Shown: positions 1,557 to 38,237 of the stretch, piece after piece
Position numbering within the stretch: the first letter of the stretch is position 1
Layout of the letters: every line of letters begins with the position of its first letter
Assembly: GCF_001653235.2 (NCBI RefSeq)
Contig: NC_035791.1
Coordinates: forward strand, 6,076,001 to 6,140,000
Direction of reading: 5' to 3'
Length of the DNA stretch: 64,000 nt
Source: Pochonia chlamydosporia 170
Taxonomy: Eukaryota > Ascomycota > Sordariomycetes > Hypocreales > Clavicipitaceae
Program-made: the position numbers and the translations under genes
Notes under the pieces: model-generated
Databases searched by the model: none
What the model was told of the DNA's origin: nothing
Seen by the model: only the letters and a program-made list of their open reading frames with translations

Positions 1557-3808
1557 ATGAAGTTCTCCGTAGCGCTTCCGATCATCGCCGCCGCACTGGC
1601 AGTAGCCAATCCAGTCATGGACCACAGCATCGAAGCTAGAGTTAGTATGCACAAACCATTCAGATACCAAAGCTAAGAAATACATCAATAGCAAGTAAGA
1701 TGCTCTAATTCTCTCACGACTGATAGAGACTGATGAATTCGGCGGCTGTAGCGTGTAAGGAGTCCCAACATTGTTGAATCAGGTTCACGCATAACCACAC
1801 GCTAATTCGGCCCCCGGTGGGTATGTCATGATGCCATCGTCTCGGGGCACATCTAATTGCGTAATAATAGCAAGTACGTTATATAATTTTGTTTCACTGC
1901 GCTGCTCTTGTCCTAACTCATACTTCTGCTACAGCCGGTGAGCAACAACCTACTAGCCATAAATGGCCGGGCACAAACACATCGCTAAGACGTCAGGGAA
2001 TTAAAGAGCGTAAGAACAATTATTTCCGCATAAAACGGGCTATCATTTGCTTCACGGGTTCTAACTACAACTCGGCCGTTAGTGTGTAAGTGTAAAGATA
2101 ACTTTAGCCACGCAAGTTCGGTATGCTGATTGCGTCATTTTAGCATGTAGGTGGTTGCTGCTCTCCAGCGGCCCGTCACGTATAGCGATGTTTACGTATT
2201 GTCTAGTTTGTAAGTGTATATGCAATAAACTAGAGCAGCGTGAGAGTCGTACTTACAGAAACGTTCATAGTACGTATGTGAGCCTCTCAATCCGCTATTC
2301 ACAGCAGTCTCTAAGTGCCAGCCGAATATAGTGTGTAAGTGCTGCCGCCGCTCTTGCGACAGTTCAGTTTGCTGACATGAGAGTACAGAGCGTAGGTTAC
2401 ATAAATACCAAGGACAAACACTGCATAAGCTGATCTGTTCGATCTCGATATACAGCATGTATGAACCCATCTCAAAACTCCTGGAAGTAGGAACGCAACT
2501 GGGATCGGATTACTAATTCTGTGCCATAGGAAGTGAGTAGCGGTCCGCATACTCGTAAAGCAACAAGGCACTGATTTGAATGGACTCAAGGGCGTAAGGC
2601 ACTCTCTCCCATTTACATATGGTAAAATTGTGCTAAGCTATTCTGCAATGGCAGACGGTTTGTCATCCTCTTCTCTATCCATCGTATCCAGCACGCTAAT
2701 CAGATAACATACAGTTTGTGAGTGATTGGCCTATTGACGAAGTGAAGAGCTTTCAATCACTGTGTGCTAAATTTATAACTGAAGGGAGTGAGTCTTCGGT
2801 ATGAGAATATGACGATACAAGAAGGCTAACCTTAGCGTGCCGTAGAATGTAAGCTTCTTGACTACCATTAAGGTTTGCAGTTCTGCTTCGTGTACTAACC
2901 AGCTGGTGATCTTCGAATTAAAGGAAGTAAGTCGTGTGCAGGCCTACAAAGTTCTGCGGGACTCTAACATTCTACGTTTTATAGCCAGTAAGTACCACTT
3001 CCTCTGAACAGTATTATGCGGACATTAACGCTTCGTAGGGTGTAAGTTGCAGTGCTTCTCGAAAAATTGCTGTTATCTTATATTCAAATAAAACCAGTTT
3101 GTGAGTTCTCCTGATCCTTATAGTAGGGTTTGTATGCTAATATAGTCGGTTATCTAGTACGTAGGTTAACTTTAGATTCTACAAAATGACTGTCGACAAA
3201 AATAACAATGGATCGACACAGGATGTAAGCATACTTCATTTCTAGCACCCTGGAAGTAGCATACTAAAACTCTATCCGAAATAGTTTGTAAGAGAATAAT
3301 CTAGATGCTTAGTTCAATTACTGTTCTCACGTTTCACATTATTCTAGTGCGTAAGTAAAAGCCTTAACAGTGTCTGGTGTAACGTCTCTACAATCGAAAG
3401 TAGATTACTGACCATACGCAGATGGTAAGTCTGTCGAGCTGCAAAACAACACATTTCAGAAGCTAATTAACGCAACTATAGGCCGTAAGTACTACTAATA
3501 GCACAGATACCCCGAAATCATATGCTAAAAGGGCTGCCATCAACCTTACTAGCATGTAAGACTTCCCCATTGGTTTACGCTCTGCCACAAAAAACAACTC
3601 AACTTATTTGCTACCAGATTGTGAGTACTACGAACGTATATTGAATTCGATTAACGGAAAACGAGCTCAAACACGTTGAATTGCTAGTGTGTAAGTATTC
3701 GCCGCAGACTGACTACGTATCGCTGGCTGCTAACGAGACGTAGCGAGTGAGTATAGCGTTTCTCCTGCTTAATTCTCGTGGCTTGCTACAACATCTCACC
3801 CATAGTGA
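1557..3808 (+). CDS. microexon gene: secreted 4-Cys peptide split into 32 single-codon exons
   Basis: Exon 1 (1557-1640, 28 codons, MKFSVALPIIAAALAVANP then MDHSIEAR) is a signal peptide plus short pro-region ending in phase 0 at GTTAGT. After it, every 51-75 nt, the pattern AG-NNN-GT recurs. The three-base exons start at: CAA 1692, CGT 1752, CAA 1871, CCG 1935, AGC 2007, TGT 2083, CAT 2144, TTT 2207, TAC 2271, TGT 2332, AGC 2389, CAT 2456, GAA 2530, GGC 2591, ACG 2655, TTT 2715, GGA 2785, AAT 2846, GAA 2924, CCA 2985, GGT 3039, TTT 3098, TAC 3158, GAT 3222, TTT 3285, TGC 3348, ATG 3422, GCC 3482, CAT 3553, ATT 3618, TGT 3688, CGA 3744. The next acceptor (AG 3804-3805) is followed directly by TGA 3806-3808. 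Donors are near consensus (GTAAGT, GTGAGT, GTAAGA, GTAGGT and similar). Branch-like GCTAAC, CTGAC or CTAAT lies upstream of most acceptors. Intron sequences are unrelated to each other, so this is not a tandem repeat. No microexon is a stop codon. The product is 60 aa with cysteines at 34, 38, 54 and 59 (C-x3-C-x15-C-x4-C). Intron 3 (116 nt) may hide one more codon. Function is unknown; an extracellular peptide is inferred. Confidence 0.87.
1818..1820 (+). other. possible extra single-codon exon (TGG) with GG acceptor
   Basis: Intron 3 is 116 nt, about twice the others. Near its middle, GCTAAT (1801) is followed by CCCCCGG, then TGG, then a strong donor GTATGT at 1821. If GG at 1816-1817 serves as, or decayed from, an AG acceptor, the two halves are 63 and 50 nt, matching the other introns. 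Inclusion would add one tryptophan without changing the frame. Confidence 0.4.
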
Positions 3809-4768
3809 ATGCCCGCTTTGGAATCGGTGGATTCAAAGGAAACCCAATCTTAGGTGCCTTTGGTAGTGGAGAAAGCATTGGTCGTTGTATGGAGTTCTCT
3901 ATCATGAGTTTAAGCTCGGCCGACCAACAGCGGGCGACGGTCATTTCAGGTAAATTCGAACAAAGAGTTTAACAGTCTTAAAACGTAAAGCAACTTATCA
4001 TAACATGCCGCCGCATTTTGACCCTCTGGTGTAATGGGTGTGAAATCCGTCTAGTAGTTTTCATTCCTGGTGTTTGGCGAACGGGGATATTTTACACCGT
4101 TGATTGCCACACACTACTTCGCATGGCCATGCATCTTATCCGTACCGTGCACTCCCTGTTCAAGATTTCGTGAAGTGAAAGTCGTAAAACCAGTTTCAAT
4201 TACCGATAATGAATTGAATGGCATGGTTTATAACTGACTCCATAACTGGCAAGTTGTACCGGCAATTGCTAGTTGACACATTGCGCATTCCATTCCTGAC
4301 CAGCAGACTTCTTCCCTTAAATTAAAAAGACAATTAGTTGTTGGGGCTATCTTAGGCCGGTAGTGTCGTTACTTCGGGCCAACAGGCAACAGGCTATGTT
4401 CCAACTAATCCCAGTTGTCTAGCCACAATTCCGAGTCGACAAATCACAACTGAGCTAAAACGGTTTCGGTGGCGGCCAAGATTATCCCGCCCCGGTGACA
4501 TGGCGGTCATAATTCCTCCGAAATCCACTGTTGACGTTGCTGGTGGCGCCAGGCAGAACATGGCGTCCACGTCAATCCCGTTTCAGGTTTCCATTCGAGG
4601 TGCATAATTACACGTCGACCCTTGGATGGAGTTGAAACGACACATCATCCATTTGTGAGGACTCGTGTACATATATCTAACTGCTGCCTCGGCCATCACG
4701 GCTCGTCAATGACCAGACTACTCGTCTCCAGATAAACCTCCTAGCTGTTCAACACCAATACACTCGCC
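3809..4768. other. 3' region of the microexon gene and P450 promoter
   Basis: No supported gene. The first 160 bases stay open in one frame (3778-3972), which could be reached only by a different donor in the last microexon. A TATATCT element at 4672 lies about 97 nt before the P450 start. Confidence 0.5.
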
Positions 4769-6442: not shown

Positions 6443-7727
6443 TGGTAAATATTGACAGTTTGATGGTGGTGGGAGAACATTGAGACGCTGCTGGACGTTT
6501 GTCTTAGTCGGTATGGGGCGATGGTGACTATGTAAGACTAGATTTGAGGATATAATACGTTTATGGAGTTTTATAACCAGAGATATTGCTTAAATCAACT
6601 CCTCCTTTTAGTTTTCACTCCTCACTGGCCGGCTGCTCTTGTTATCCGTGATGAACGACAGGGTTAAAGAGGACTTTGGGAGAGAGCACATATCTGCGGT
6701 CAATTGCGATTGCTATATCGGGCCCCTCTACCGAGAAACTTGGGATCAGATGGCTTTTTGAAAGCTTCAGCAAACACAGCATCCATGTCTTTTGTAGGAG
6801 GATCCATGACTAGAATAAAAGATGAGAAATGTCGGTAGAGATGTGGGTTGGGTAGCACACGAACGAAGTCTAGCTTTGATACTAAAAATGTGAAGCTGAA
6901 AAATATAAATCCAAAATATTTGGCCGATGGGACATTTATATTCCGGGAGAGTTATGGAAATAAATGCTTGATGAGTTCAGGTGTTGCTACAAAGCCGAAG
7001 CGCCGTTACTATTTTTAACTCGGAGTTGTTGGGTCGATGATGTTGGCCCTGGGTGGCTCGCAAGTGGTTACCCAGCCTCTTGTCGGCGTCAATTGTTTCA
7101 GGTATGGTACACTCAATTTTCACAGCTCTGAGGACATTTCTGTGGCTACGGTGAGAGATTGAAGGGGTTGCGTATCGCGTTATATACTAGGATATACGCA
7201 CATGTGTTGGTGTATACTCGCATGTGCCCACGGACTGCCCTAATCTAGGCATATACGTAGCACAAGCTATACATGTAATTTTCTGCTTCCTTTCTTGTCC
7301 CAGTTTCCATGCATGCCAAACTTTGAACCTAAGATTTGCGGTATACTGTGAGCATCGCATCGAGCGCTTAAGAACTCGGCCGCATTAGGTCAGGGTTTCA
7401 ACTAGTCCAGTGTTGCATTGCGTCAGGTCGGGCCACATCACATTGGGTGAGTAGCCGCTTGGCCGAACAATTCAGTGGATGAGTGGAGTTGAGTTATCCA
7501 ACCGAAGTTCAGGTCATGTCAAATCAAATCCATAAATAAATACAATAAAACAGTGCCATGGCCACCAGACTTGACACACTACTTGTTTCTTTATCTTCAT
7601 TGATGCCCATCTCGCAAACATCGACACCTATACATTCACTCGGGGGTCTGGCATCGAATAAATTGGTCTCACGTCTAATCTTGACTCGTTCCGCAAGCAA
7701 GCTGTAGCAAGGAATCCAACAACCGAC
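6443..7727. other. intergenic
   Basis: No supported gene. It holds one arm of an inverted repeat (7203-7218) whose partner lies downstream of the next gene. The sequence around 7170-7250 is rich in alternating purine-pyrimidine TATAC/CATGTG. Confidence 0.55.
7203..7218. repeat. left arm of inverted repeat flanking the 7728 gene
   Basis: TGTGTTGGTGTATACT is the exact reverse complement of 8537-8552. Just outside, CGTATCGCG (7171-7179) imperfectly matches the complement of 8576-8586, so the similarity extends beyond the 16-bp core in degenerate form. It could be a decayed short inverted-repeat element; coincidence is not excluded. Confidence 0.5.
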
Positions 7728-33362: not shown

Positions 33363-34356
33363 TCAACTATGAGGTTCATCGCCTCGAAAAGATGTCCCTG
33401 CCACCGCCTTAGTATGTCGTCCGTAAGGTTGTGAAAGATCCCGTCTATTGAGCGACTTACCCAAAATAGGATGCGATAGTATGGGGCCAGTCAGGCTTGG
33501 AACGTAATTCTCCTTCGACCAAGCCATCAATTTGTCCCAATTTCGACACTGATGTTCCGTGCTCATACTAGGCCACGGCCATCTATAGTCCTCCTTCCAT
33601 TCGTACGTGTGCAGAGATATATCCCCATGACACATGACCACTTGGCGAAGCAAATCAATGCAGTGGTCAAAGTGCTCCTGCTGGTCCGCAAGTGGGTTAG
33701 GATCGTGGTAGTAGTCGGAGTAGTAGGATTTGCGAATTTTGTTCACGCAGTGCAGTGTGTGAAAGACATCCAGAGTCGCGAGGTAGCCGCCCTGGTCGTC
33801 ATTTAAGGGCACAGAGGTTTTGTTTGCCTTTTCAAGGTCCACCTTTTGTACCCGGAGGTTGTTATCTTAATGAATGGCTTGTTAAAACTCTGACAGAACG
33901 AAGGGTAGCGAACTTCAATTACATTGTAAAAGGTCCTCCCATGCTGCATCTTGCTCCGGTCGTGGCGGGCCTCTATATTTGCCATTATCTTCAAGGTTGT
34001 GGACAATCGTTTGTTTCTCATATTTTATAGCTGTTCTCGCGGGAGCTAACATATGTCAGCATCATACTCTTGTGTTCGCGGTAGTCTGTTTTCTTACAAT
34101 AGATTGCGCCATCCTCACAGGCACATTGCTTCCCATTTATTCTTACACTCCATGCATATAATGTGACGGTGAGGACGGTGTAAAAGACAAAAGCGCCGGC
34201 ATGAAGGTAGGTCTTTAATCTGCCGTTTCGTTTTGATGTCGTAGATGGTTGAGAATGTAGAAGCTTCTCTTGTGATTGATCGTCGCTTAACAGACTCTCC
34301 GTGTCTAGTGAATCTGTAGGGTCATGGCCCTTTGTCAAAGCCCGCCCTGAATACAT
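33363..34356 (-). CDS. UstYa-family oxidase (DUF3328), first of three
   Basis: Exons 34356-34098, 34030-33923 and 33865-33363 join in phase to 289 residues. Exon 1 has a cytosolic N terminus and one transmembrane helix (AGAFVFYTVLTVTLYAW). Exon 2 gives IKYEKQTIVHNLEDNGKYRG then PPRPEQDAAWEDLL, the typical UstYa middle. Exon 3 gives YNNLRV and KTSVPLNDDQGGYLATLDVF leading into the paired HxxHC motifs, HTLHC and HFDHC, which are proposed metal/active-site residues. UstYa-type proteins carry out oxidative cyclisation of peptide cores in ustiloxin, phomopsin and asperipin pathways. This gene is the next one downstream of the repeat precursor and shares its strand. A further intron near 33470 (donor GTAAGT after PIL) would give a different, shorter C terminus; I could not decide this. 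Confidence 0.88.
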
Positions 34357-34911: not shown

Positions 34912-35406
34912 TTAAGCCTCAGAGCGCTTCCCCCAGCCAGCCTGGTTGTTGTACAAAATATCGGGACTCTGAGCCTCAGAGCGCTTCTCAGAACGCTTTC
35001 CCCAACCAGCCTGGTTATTGTACAAAATGTCAGGGCTCTGGGCTTCGGAACGTTTCTCAGAGCGCTTTCCCCAACCGGCCTGGTTATTGTACAAGATATC
35101 AGGGCTCTGAGCCTCAGATCGCTTGTCCTCAGAACGCTTTCCCCAGCCGGCCTGATTGTTGTAGAGAATGTCAGGGCTCTGAGCTTCAGAACGCTTCTCA
35201 GAACGCTTGCCCCAACCAGCTTGGTTGTTGTACAAGATGTCAGGGCTTTGAGCCTCAGAGCGTTTCCCCCAGCCAGCCTGGTTGTTGTACAAAATGTCGG
35301 GGCTCTGAGCCTCGGAGCGCTTGTATTCGTCGGTGTCCAGTGGTTGAACTGGTGCGGCAATGGCGGCACCAAATAGTGCGAGTGCAATGGGAATAAAAGT
35401 CTTCAT
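34912..35406 (-). CDS. RiPP precursor with six KR-ended 19-residue repeats
   Basis: 164 residues from the ATG at 35406, chosen because it starts a clear signal peptide (MKTFIPIALALFGAAIAA). The frame upstream to 35478 has none. A 12-residue leader ending in KR is followed by six identical copies of SEAQSPDILYNNQAGWGKR at residues 31-49, 50-68, 73-91, 97-115, 120-138 and 143-161. They are separated by SEKR or SEDKR spacers, and the chain ends in SEA. Each KR is a Kex2-type cleavage site. Secretory entry, Kex2 punctuation, near-perfect repeats and three UstYa-family genes within 4 kb are the hallmarks of dikaritin-type fungal RiPPs such as ustiloxin and asperipin. The candidate core is around ILYNNQAGWG, with Tyr and Trp as possible oxidation or crosslink sites. 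Alternatively it is a secreted repeat peptide or pheromone-like precursor, but it lacks known alpha-pheromone motifs. Confidence 0.9.
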   Translation of the reverse strand: MKTFIPIALALFGAAIAAPVQPLDTDEYKRSEAQSPDILYNNQAGWGKRSEAQSPDILYNNQAGWGKRSEKRSEAQSPDILYNNQAGWGKRSEDKRSEAQSPDILYNNQAGWGKRSEKRSEAQSPDILYNNQAGWGKRSEKRSEAQSPDILYNNQAGWGKRSEA

Positions 35407-36512
35407 TTTGAAAGATTTGTCGGGTTGAACAGATGGTTTGAGACAAGTGTTGTTGTTTGATGTGAGGATATCTTTCACAAAGACAATACGAATGTGCTGG
35501 ATAACTCTCTATCTATCTATATGACTAGTTGTCTGACAATATCCTGAAACAGAGCATCAACTTGGGGAACGTTGCAACACACCCATAGCGGGGAAACCTC
35601 TCCAACATTGATTTCACCATTTTTCATTCACTGATGCCAAAGTTGTTGTGTAAATGCCTCTGTTCGCGGGGTATAGCTAACTGGCTAATTAGCCGACGAA
35701 ACCTAATGGACGGCAGTGATCCTTCGACAGGGGGCCTGCGTGTCAGCAGCCACTTTGACTTTGTTCTTGTCCAGTCGAATCTTTAACGGCCGAAGGGAAA
35801 TTTGCACGCTAAGCTAAGACCGAGTTAAGTCAGCGGATCTATACCTTGGGACTTTGTTTGCTTTTGACAATTCCTAATGCGTAACTAGATGAGCTCCATC
35901 TTAAAAGTGCAATTGGTTGATCAAGGGTCCTTTCACATCGGCAATTGGCTATGCGGGGGTTAATAGCCTCGCGTAAGTCGTGGCACTATACCAAGATGAG
36001 AGACGAAAGTCACAACTTCTCGTCTTGTTGATCCTTCTTCTGCACGTCAGACTGAGGTTGTACTATATCCTACGTAGTATCTGAACAACACGCACGCCAT
36101 CTGCTGCAAGACGTGCTTACAGGACTCATCATAGCCAATAGCCACCAGTGCAAAGTGAATGATGTGCGAACACTTCTGACTCAGTGTGGCAATGTGTGCT
36201 TATAGACTCAAAAGCAAAATGTAACCTTCTTAAACCGGAAATGCGAAGTTTAGAAGATCGCTTACCGATACCCGGGAGGATCTGACTTTAGGATGTCGCT
36301 TTTTCTCACACAGTCCACAATGCACGGTACAGGATGGTGTAAGGCGGCGCTAGTTCAAACGAAAATCTGCTTACGTAGGACGTTTCGTTTATGCGTAGTA
36401 GTTCAACAAGTACTCAACGCTGTGATACATGTAACTCTCTGCGTCAAGACAGCCAGGCTTCTCTTGAAAGGCTTCCTATCACATTCAAATCTCATTCACT
36501 TAGACGGACCAC
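35407..36512. promoter_or_regulatory. divergent promoter of precursor and UstYa-2
   Basis: 1.1 kb between the divergent precursor and UstYa-2 genes. No gene supported. Joint regulation is inferred from the arrangement; no specific operator was recognised. Confidence 0.45.
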
Positions 36513-37562: not shown

Positions 37563-38237
37563 TTATTTTGCGCATTTCGGATACTTTACAAAGATCTTTG
37601 TGCCCGAATCCTTCATGCCTTCCGGATGGCCTCCAATCATCTTTACGCAATGGCTTGTATGATGATAGTTGGCAGTGTACGAGTCCAACTCCTGCGTCGG
37701 ATCCAGCAAGATTCTATGTAGCCGCTTCCACACATACATGCAATGCGTGACATGCCAGTCAAACGTAGTTACAAAGTGTCCATAATCGCCAGCACCAAGC
37801 TCTTGCATGGTAAGGTTCCGACCTGACGCAATCTCATACGGCCAATGGCGCTCTTTATACATGGCCTCGGCGTCTTCTGCATCCGCTTCTGTGAGGCAAG
37901 ACTTTGGCAGCCACGAGTGAAGAACGATGCTGTACTGGCAGCCTCGTGCTTTTGCGTCTTCGGGTGAGTTGCCACAGTCGCCGTGAGACCAGGCCAACGG
38001 AAGGCCAGTGTTGGGATCAGAACCATTGCGAGCGTGTGGTAGGTTGCGCGCGTGTGGCGGTTCTGGCATTATAAAGGCTGAATAAAGAGCCATTACGGCT
38101 CCCATTGTGACGAGACCAAGAAGAAATGAGCTCAATGTTGAAACCCATCCTCGGTGCGGTCGGATAGGTTTTTGGTAATCTTCTCCATAGTCGCTAGTAT
38201 CGTTGTCGACTTGCGCGTACTTGATCTTGTCGGTCAT
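37563..38237 (-). CDS. divergent UstYa-like membrane protein, third of three
   Basis: An intronless frame of 224 residues. It has a charged cytosolic N terminus, one transmembrane segment (STLSSFLLGLVTMGAVMALY), a short Pro/His-rich linker with a near-duplicated PPHARN/LPHARN, and a luminal domain. That domain keeps two His-x-x-His-Cys-type motifs (HVTHC in DWHVTHCMYVWKRLHR, and HTSHC), the spacing logic of UstYa proteins. However, the middle (WSHGDCGNSPEDAKARGC and SIVLHSWLPKSC) has its own conserved cysteines and no GGYLATLDVFH block. It belongs to a distant branch of the DUF3328-type proteins. Convergent with UstYa-2 with 157 bp between stops, it probably completes the cluster. The exact reaction is unknown. 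Confidence 0.82.
   Translation of the reverse strand: MTDKIKYAQVDNDTSDYGEDYQKPIRPHRGWVSTLSSFLLGLVTMGAVMALYSAFIMPEPPHARNLPHARNGSDPNTGLPLAWSHGDCGNSPEDAKARGCQYSIVLHSWLPKSCLTEADAEDAEAMYKERHWPYEIASGRNLTMQELGAGDYGHFVTTFDWHVTHCMYVWKRLHRILLDPTQELDSYTANYHHTSHCVKMIGGHPEGMKDSGTKIFVKYPKCAK

Follow-up and report, generated by a model that had tools for sequence, protein, structure and literature searches.

Predicted arrays of single-codon exons and a shared downstream element in Pochonia chlamydosporia 170

The window, that is, the whole 64,000-nt stretch of DNA analysed here (C2:6076001-6140000 in the frame of the 44.2-Mb genome of 49 contigs), very probably carries one of four loci in which a signal-like frame is followed by predicted single-codon exons that would be spliced into a secreted Cys-rich peptide, each locus sharing a downstream element. 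A gene with one codon per exon had been proposed for this region in the original prediction. The single-codon array at 1557-3808, hereafter array A, was confirmed, and the sequence evidence strongly supports reading its mature region as one codon in each exon, the splicing itself being predicted. This core reading is supported by three more arrays (B, C and D), by 3-nt exons free of stops, by Cys enrichment, by a Cys framework common to array D and the intact locus L031, and by the common element. One part of the prediction that had to be changed was its setting, as array A has three sister arrays and belongs with them to a set of 18 secreted-peptide-like genes rather than being a lone oddity. 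If spliced as predicted, the gene would represent an extreme case of gene fragmentation, with one exon per residue of the mature peptide, and it would probe the limit of intron-definition splicing with 3-nt exons.

Structure, chance level and codon content of array A

An 84-nt signal-peptide-like exon 1 followed by 32 AG-NNN-GT triplets was found again, in coordinates and counts, when 1557-3808 of the plus strand was re-read, and there were 0 stops among the 32 triplets (Table 1). The introns measured 51-75 nt with the single exception of 116 nt, the TGA at 3806-3808 stood directly behind the last acceptor, and the coding total came to 183 nt of 2252, all as previously described. The conceptual product of 60 residues, MKFSVALPIIAAALAVANPVMDHSIEAR followed by QRQPSCHFYCSHEGTFGNEPGFYDFCMAHICR, is likely a secreted Cys-rich peptide as predicted from the sequence, the signal peptide being called by eye. 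The statement that every triplet is flanked by good splice sites stood in part: all 33 introns (33/33) are GT-AG and all 33 have G at +5, but one donor, GTTTGT, is weak. Inclusion of the Thr codon at 2655-2657 is the least certain in the array, and the unit spacing of 64 and 60 nt favours its inclusion. The branch-point motif was missing from 5/33 introns in a simple branch-point scan. The overlong intron 3 possibly represents two introns around a lost microexon. Intron retention would mostly be harmful, because 31 of the 33 introns have an in-frame stop (19/33) or a length not divisible by three (21/33).

Table 1 Features of array A and its downstream element (window positions)
Feature	Position	Strand	Description
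Exon 1	1557-1640	+	84 nt; predicted signal peptide and pro-region MKFSVALPIIAAALAVANPVMDHSIEAR; ends in phase 0; basis: sequence
Array of 32 predicted single-codon exons	1692-3746	+	Translation QRQPSCHFYCSHEGTFGNEPGFYDFCMAHICR
First bases of codons 1-11	1692, 1752, 1871, 1935, 2007, 2083, 2144, 2207, 2271, 2332, 2389	+	
First bases of codons 12-22	2456, 2530, 2591, 2655, 2715, 2785, 2846, 2924, 2985, 3039, 3098	+	
First bases of codons 23-32	3158, 3222, 3285, 3348, 3422, 3482, 3553, 3618, 3688, 3744	+	
Intron 3	1755-1870	+	116 nt, about two units; two CTAAT motifs, lying 65 nt and 14 nt ahead of the acceptor
Intron with the weakest donor of the array	2658-2714	+	Donor GTTTGT
Last intron	3747-3805	+	CATAG end abuts the stop
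Stop codon TGA	3806-3808	+	Opens the last exon
Family downstream element	3879-3926	+	Predicted hairpin; core 3906-3925 GAGTTTAAGCTCGGCCGACC, exact in the window

Strict AG-NNN-GT sites were counted in the window at 46 on the plus strand, 31 of them in 1600-3800, and at 8 on the minus strand. With a strict donor, array A contained a chain of 17 and the rest of the window single sites only, and across 200 simulated 64-kb sequences the longest strict chain was 1 in 161, 2 in 38 and 3 in a single case. A looser donor extended the chain in array A to 30; the other 43 strand-sources gave at most 2, except C1:1-10000, where a chain of 10 belonged to a sister gene. A two-unit sequence model (R1) also found array A again.

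The array was then parsed by a splice-site dynamic programme that ignored the reading frame and permitted internal exons between 1 and 60 nt long. When the matrices came from arrays C and D, 31/32 or 29/32 internal exons of array A were 3 nt long depending on the matrix set, the lower count coming from matrices taken from the frame-aware models of arrays C and D; the 32/32 reached with array A's own matrices is circular. Matrices from array A gave 3-nt internal exons at 9/9 in array B, 26/30 in array C and 28/33 in array D. Among 100 genomic control windows tried, the 66 that parsed contained a mean of 0.09 such exons and at most one, the 34 without a parse being left out of the count, and the shuffled region of array A yielded at most three (100 attempted). 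The 94 three-nt exons of the frame-blind parse included 0 stops and 19 Cys codons; at the intronic stop rate of 4.0%, the probability of 0 stops in 94 is about 0.02. A frame-aware parse returned 3-nt exons at 32/32 in array A and 9/9 in array B, together with 27 three-nt, 2 six-nt and 1 twelve-nt exons in array C and 32 three-nt exons and 1 fifteen-nt exon in array D; this parse bars stops by construction, and the stop count was hence taken from the frame-blind one. The predicted 6- and 12-nt exons of array C indicate that exon length in the family would not always be one codon. The parser overshot the hand-read stops in array A (with the matrices from arrays C and D), array C and array D, and its frame-aware version set the last acceptor of array A at 3853 rather than 3805. 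The arrays themselves are more certain than the gene ends, and the ends of arrays C and D are uncertain.

The codons of the frame-aware models differed from intronic control triplets in several respects, in a comparison whose triplet composition may be biased by the parser scoring. Cys codons accounted for 19/100 triplets versus 57/1040 intronic controls (p 1e-5). GTN codons (0/100 versus 52/1040, p 0.011) and NAG codons (0/100 versus 66/1040, p 0.003), which could make competing donors or acceptors, were absent, and codons with a final G were fewer (8/100 versus 248/1040). A simple rule by which splice-ambiguous codons are avoided is nevertheless contradicted by the enrichment of NGT (23/100 versus 51/1040, p 9e-9), due in part to the Cys codon TGT, and by the presence of AGN, whose reduction was not significant (2/100 versus 61/1040, p 0.16).

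Sister arrays, the 18-member set and the downstream element

A 12-place pattern searched over the genome clustered at the window and at C1:1431-2034 among the matches listed. The chain on C1 was considered as a plain tandem repeat and rejected, as its triplets vary. Array B on C1 consists of MKVVYIVSTALTGLAAAIPLVDSTPSKTLEKR, nine single codons reading QQCDQCPLC and a TGA right behind the acceptor. A stretch behind the stop is common to arrays B and A. A DNA search with the post-stop stretch of array B led to 17 places, and the 20-base core, with at most two mismatches, occurred in 18 copies in the 44-Mb genome, the reversed controls giving 0 and 0. Four of these 18 element-bearing loci are codon arrays, namely array A in the window, array B on C1, array C at C7:2611372 and array D at C5:3553992. 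The remaining members contain one or few ordinary exons, and several are Cys-rich, e.g., L026, L030, L031 and L035. Upstream of all 18 element copies (18/18), a short secreted-peptide-like frame with a hydrophobic N-terminus was present on the same strand; 17 of the 18 frames came from a hydrophobicity script, with the frame picked by eye among several in many loci, and that of array A was identified by eye.

The alignment of the 18 copies was predicted to fold as a three-helix hairpin, in which 96.7% of 304 cells pair, versus 19-51% in slid controls. The stem covaries: two-sided changes were found in 14 cells as against 4.6 in shuffles (0/500 reached 14), and in 5 pairs as against 3.0 (13/500), the shuffles ignoring the relatedness of the element copies. 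In Rfam, there were 0 matches in the window at the gathering score, and the one lax match in 3800-4100 (E 2.2, at 4009-4079) lay outside the element. As judged from sequence, the downstream element likely belongs to the 3' UTR of the mRNA as an RNA element, where the hairpin might tag transcripts of the family for stability, localisation or translation. It also provides a sequence handle for members whose proteins defy similarity search.

Further patterns, each covering a named codon subset, so that an array lacking those codons might go undetected, were run over the whole genome. Pattern YAGTGYGTAAGT gave 29 matches and TAGTNNGTAAGT gave 55, both with clusters at all four arrays, and TAGCNNGTAAGT gave 77, with clusters at arrays B, C and D and one match in array A. 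Close pairs were also returned by TAGCNNGTAAGT at C1:8016852/8016974 and C5:187005/187821, and a further close same-strand pair lay at C7:3035110/3035489. Pattern TAGNNNGTAAGT, with matches listed up to C4:2.09 Mb, showed no enrichment genome-wide (135 and 94 matches versus 225 and 219 for the reversed control). The C1:8.017 Mb site is a decayed array (L044 1290-1780, i.e., C1:8016790-8017280) with a different intron repeat, in which several units have lost the splice dinucleotides or the spacing of 3 nt; the site contains none of the 18 copies of the element. Because this decayed array demonstrates that arrays can die, expression of array A is not to be assumed.

Two other members of the set, L032 and L038, were read on the reverse-complement strand (frames from 862 and 926 of the reversed locus). 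As in arrays A and B, a phase-0 donor-like site lies right behind the pro-region Arg, and it is followed by a larger exon with internal repeats.

At the peptide level, residues 1-44 of the array A product matched a paralogue at C2:5846234-5846362 (-) with 42% identity (E 0.0013). This paralogue (L003 1402-1629, minus strand), about 230 kb from the window gene, is a 75-aa Cys-rich open frame that needs no intron, and its signal and pro-region resemble exon 1 of array A. A homologue search with the array A product, which scored one candidate, gave none with E up to 10; no homologue was found with the mature parts of arrays A, C and D joined as one query, and Pfam assigned no family to array A or C. 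The hand-read codons of array D, CIPEYQRCETLGQPCCHDHHCRIFQGYMNHGY (32 codons), show the Cys spacing CX6CX6CCX4C, and L031 (1234-1467), an intact, single-exon and knottin-like member of the set, shows CX6CX5CCX4C. Only 25 of 201,376 placements of five Cys fitted a framework of the D/L031 type, in a test that was chosen after the sequences had been seen and in which one array D codon follows the hand reading of 3 nt where the parser chose the 15-nt exon. The array D peptide, submitted with a hand-read last exon that the parser did not choose, matched Pfam Toxin_9 (E 0.0017, 19.1 bits, below the cut-off of 21.3) and Toxin_35 (E 0.023). Array D also matched an atracotoxin chain (E 0.34), and one hand reading of array C, unlike that of the parser, weakly matched granulin A chain 1g26 (E 0.042). 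Relatives of L031 numbered 12 with E up to 10, some of them bearing names from Mariannaea, Trichoderma, Verticillium and Cordyceps; hence at least one intact member occurs widely in fungi. These fungal names, together with the UstYa protein in the window, were the grounds on which the genome was treated as fungal.

Origin, splicing and competing explanations

The introns of array A are mutually unrelated, as had been reported, with 0/528 pairs above the shuffled 99.9th percentile. The conclusion drawn from this, that tandem duplication does not explain them, has to be withdrawn, as the sister arrays B and D still show duplication. The introns of array B form a 74-bp tandem repeat of 9.7 copies with a mean identity of 0.908, and 45/45 pairs exceeded the same percentile. 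In this and the following pair counts, the last intron of array C and the last two of array D are omitted. Pairs above the percentile amounted to 37/496 among the introns of array D and 170/320 between arrays B and D, whereas little was seen with array C (C-C 5/435, B-C 7/300, C-D 3/960) or between array A and its sisters (A-B 1/330, A-C 2/990, A-D 4/1056). A profile of array D introns, built without the last introns and those outside 61-79 nt, matched all ten introns of array B (E 8e-14 to 1.2e-8) and, weakly, an intron of the ordinary member L033 (E 0.01), and matched none of the introns of arrays A and C at E up to 5.

Because the tandem-repeat introns of array B are still evident, local tandem growth is the most economical account of the origin, and the codon-plus-intron units probably arose by tandem duplication; for arrays A and C, whose introns have no clear relation to those of arrays B or D, this origin is extrapolated. 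Over the eight full-length units of array B, with the 73-nt ninth unit left out, the three codon columns differed in 0.61, 0.75 and 0.54 of pairs versus 0.057 for intron columns. Overall, codon sites differed in 63% of pairs, 11 times more often than intron sites (5.7%), which suggests that the codons of array B diversified faster than the introns; either selection or targeted change may account for the excess. Tandem amplification may have started from an intron located at, or close to, the boundary between signal and mature parts and copied together with one codon, after which the codons would have diversified and the introns drifted apart. On this scheme array B would be young, array D intermediate and arrays A and C old, and since one genome contains arrays of seemingly different ages, it becomes possible to test directly whether intron-dense genes are born by tandem duplication of units.

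Intron definition would remove each 50-75-nt intron in turn, probably in the 5' to 3' direction: with intron 1 out, exon 1 would end in the codon, and splicing would proceed from the donor that follows. Such a mode fits because the introns are short, and a free 3-nt exon need not be recognised because each codon would already be joined to exon 1. As 33 successive splices multiply losses, splicing fidelity must be high; the computed full-length share was 72% (0.718) at 99% per intron and 18% at 95%. The precursor would enter the secretory pathway and be cut after the pro-region, and the peptides, that of array D having knottin-like Cys spacing, probably have an extracellular role in defence or interaction. 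We put forward a wider reading tentatively, without favouring it outright, in which these loci constitute a codon-cassette system in fungi: each residue of a secreted peptide would sit in its own tandemly copied intron-codon unit, and the peptides would be lengthened, shortened or rewritten residue by residue through unit gain, unit loss and codon change, possibly with further variation by in-frame exon skipping, all members of the family being marked by a common 3' hairpin.

Four competing explanations were weighed against the reading of array A as a stably spliced single-codon gene. The microexons might be optional, so that one gene would give a mixture of peptides; all 32 triplets of array A are 3 nt in phase 0, so that skips would never shift the frame, and donor and acceptor strengths vary along the array. 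We consider this unlikely nonetheless, as the full codon order of array D yields the Cys framework common to the intact L031, pointing to one main product. It is still less probable that the array is dying or dead, with splice signals persisting as remnants and without a peptide. The double length of intron 3, the one weak donor and the decayed array on C1 agree with such decay, but array A keeps the splice dinucleotides, the G at +5 and the freedom from stops detailed above despite mutually dissimilar introns, and, if the tandem origin holds, this persistence of signals and stop-free codons through intron divergence means that array A has been maintained for long.

Insertion of introners, i.e., dispersed mobile introns placed one by one between codons, would account for short introns that are all in phase 0 and for the relatedness of the array B and D introns. 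We regard it as very improbable, because a genome search with the array B unit gave 10 matches at E up to 1, all of them in array B, in favour of local tandem growth; this search, made at the DNA level, leaves out very common words, and a single candidate stretch was scored. Finally, a splice-like pattern without biological meaning, arising by chance or as an artefact, draws on nothing except the ease with which a single AG-NNN-GT is met, and its probability is practically negligible: chains reached only 1-3 in simulated sequence and 2 in other scanned sequence, and it is contradicted by three more arrays, in which a first exon of signal type recurs along with the downstream element.

Known short-exon genes and further loci

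Schistosome microexon genes (MEGs) encode secreted products with a conserved N-terminal signal and have numerous tiny exons whose lengths are, for the most part, divisible by three (PMC10526429); these exons are put at 6-81 bp in the text of that paper and at 3-81 bp in its abstract, mostly 15 bp, with 10-20 short exons per gene and introns of 0.1-5 kb (PMC10526429). Array A is alike in its predicted secretion, N-terminal signal and many tiny exons, but it differs in its exons of 3 nt, its introns of 51-116 nt and its fungal host, and the long introns and 15-bp exons typical of MEGs are not found in it. The aphid bicycle genes, putative effectors beyond ordinary similarity search, contain many small same-phase internal exons (PMC9168663), with about 17 exons on average and internal exons almost all in phase 2 (PMC9168663); in contrast to these insect genes, the fungal array A has single codons that are all in phase 0. 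Isolated 3-bp exons are described in Drosophila homothorax (PMC7392893) and, in a fungus, as exon 2 of Ganoderma lucidum gpd (PMC8379801), and these cases indicate that a 3-nt exon can be spliced. There, however, a single short exon lies in a longer gene, whereas here the run would make up the whole mature product. The 3-bp exons in fungal mitochondrial genomes belong with other intron types (PMC12308204).

Nematode HYP effectors, in which hypervariability is confined to one central domain with allelic changes in motif order and number (PMC11228951), resemble the present arrays in this one-domain hypervariability, and single-codon exons are not mentioned in the abstract of that paper (PMC11228951). 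With ICK/knottin toxins, the likeness comprises the array D framework with its weak Toxin_9 match and the near-identical framework of L031, and arrays A and B are without the framework. No fungal run of single-codon exons was among the matches listed in the literature on microexons, tiny exons, splicing and fungal secreted proteins, a body that covered neither preprints nor most subscription papers. Ordinary gene finders and spliced aligners are likely to overlook such genes, which may leave gaps in fungal secretomes.

Two contig ends, L010 (C2:1-10000) and L020 (C10:1-10000), were identical at 6660/10000 positions when compared in register and unaligned, which suggests duplicated contig ends. 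Elsewhere in the window, on the minus strand, 34912-35478, together with 33363-33842 and 37563-38237, likely carries a dikaritin-type RiPP precursor, whose repeated cores DILYNNQAGWGKRSEAQSP are flanked by KR sites. Close to the precursor lie a UstYa protein (PF11807, E 1.9e-37) and a second protein with a weaker UstYa-like match (E 0.0057, below the cut-off).
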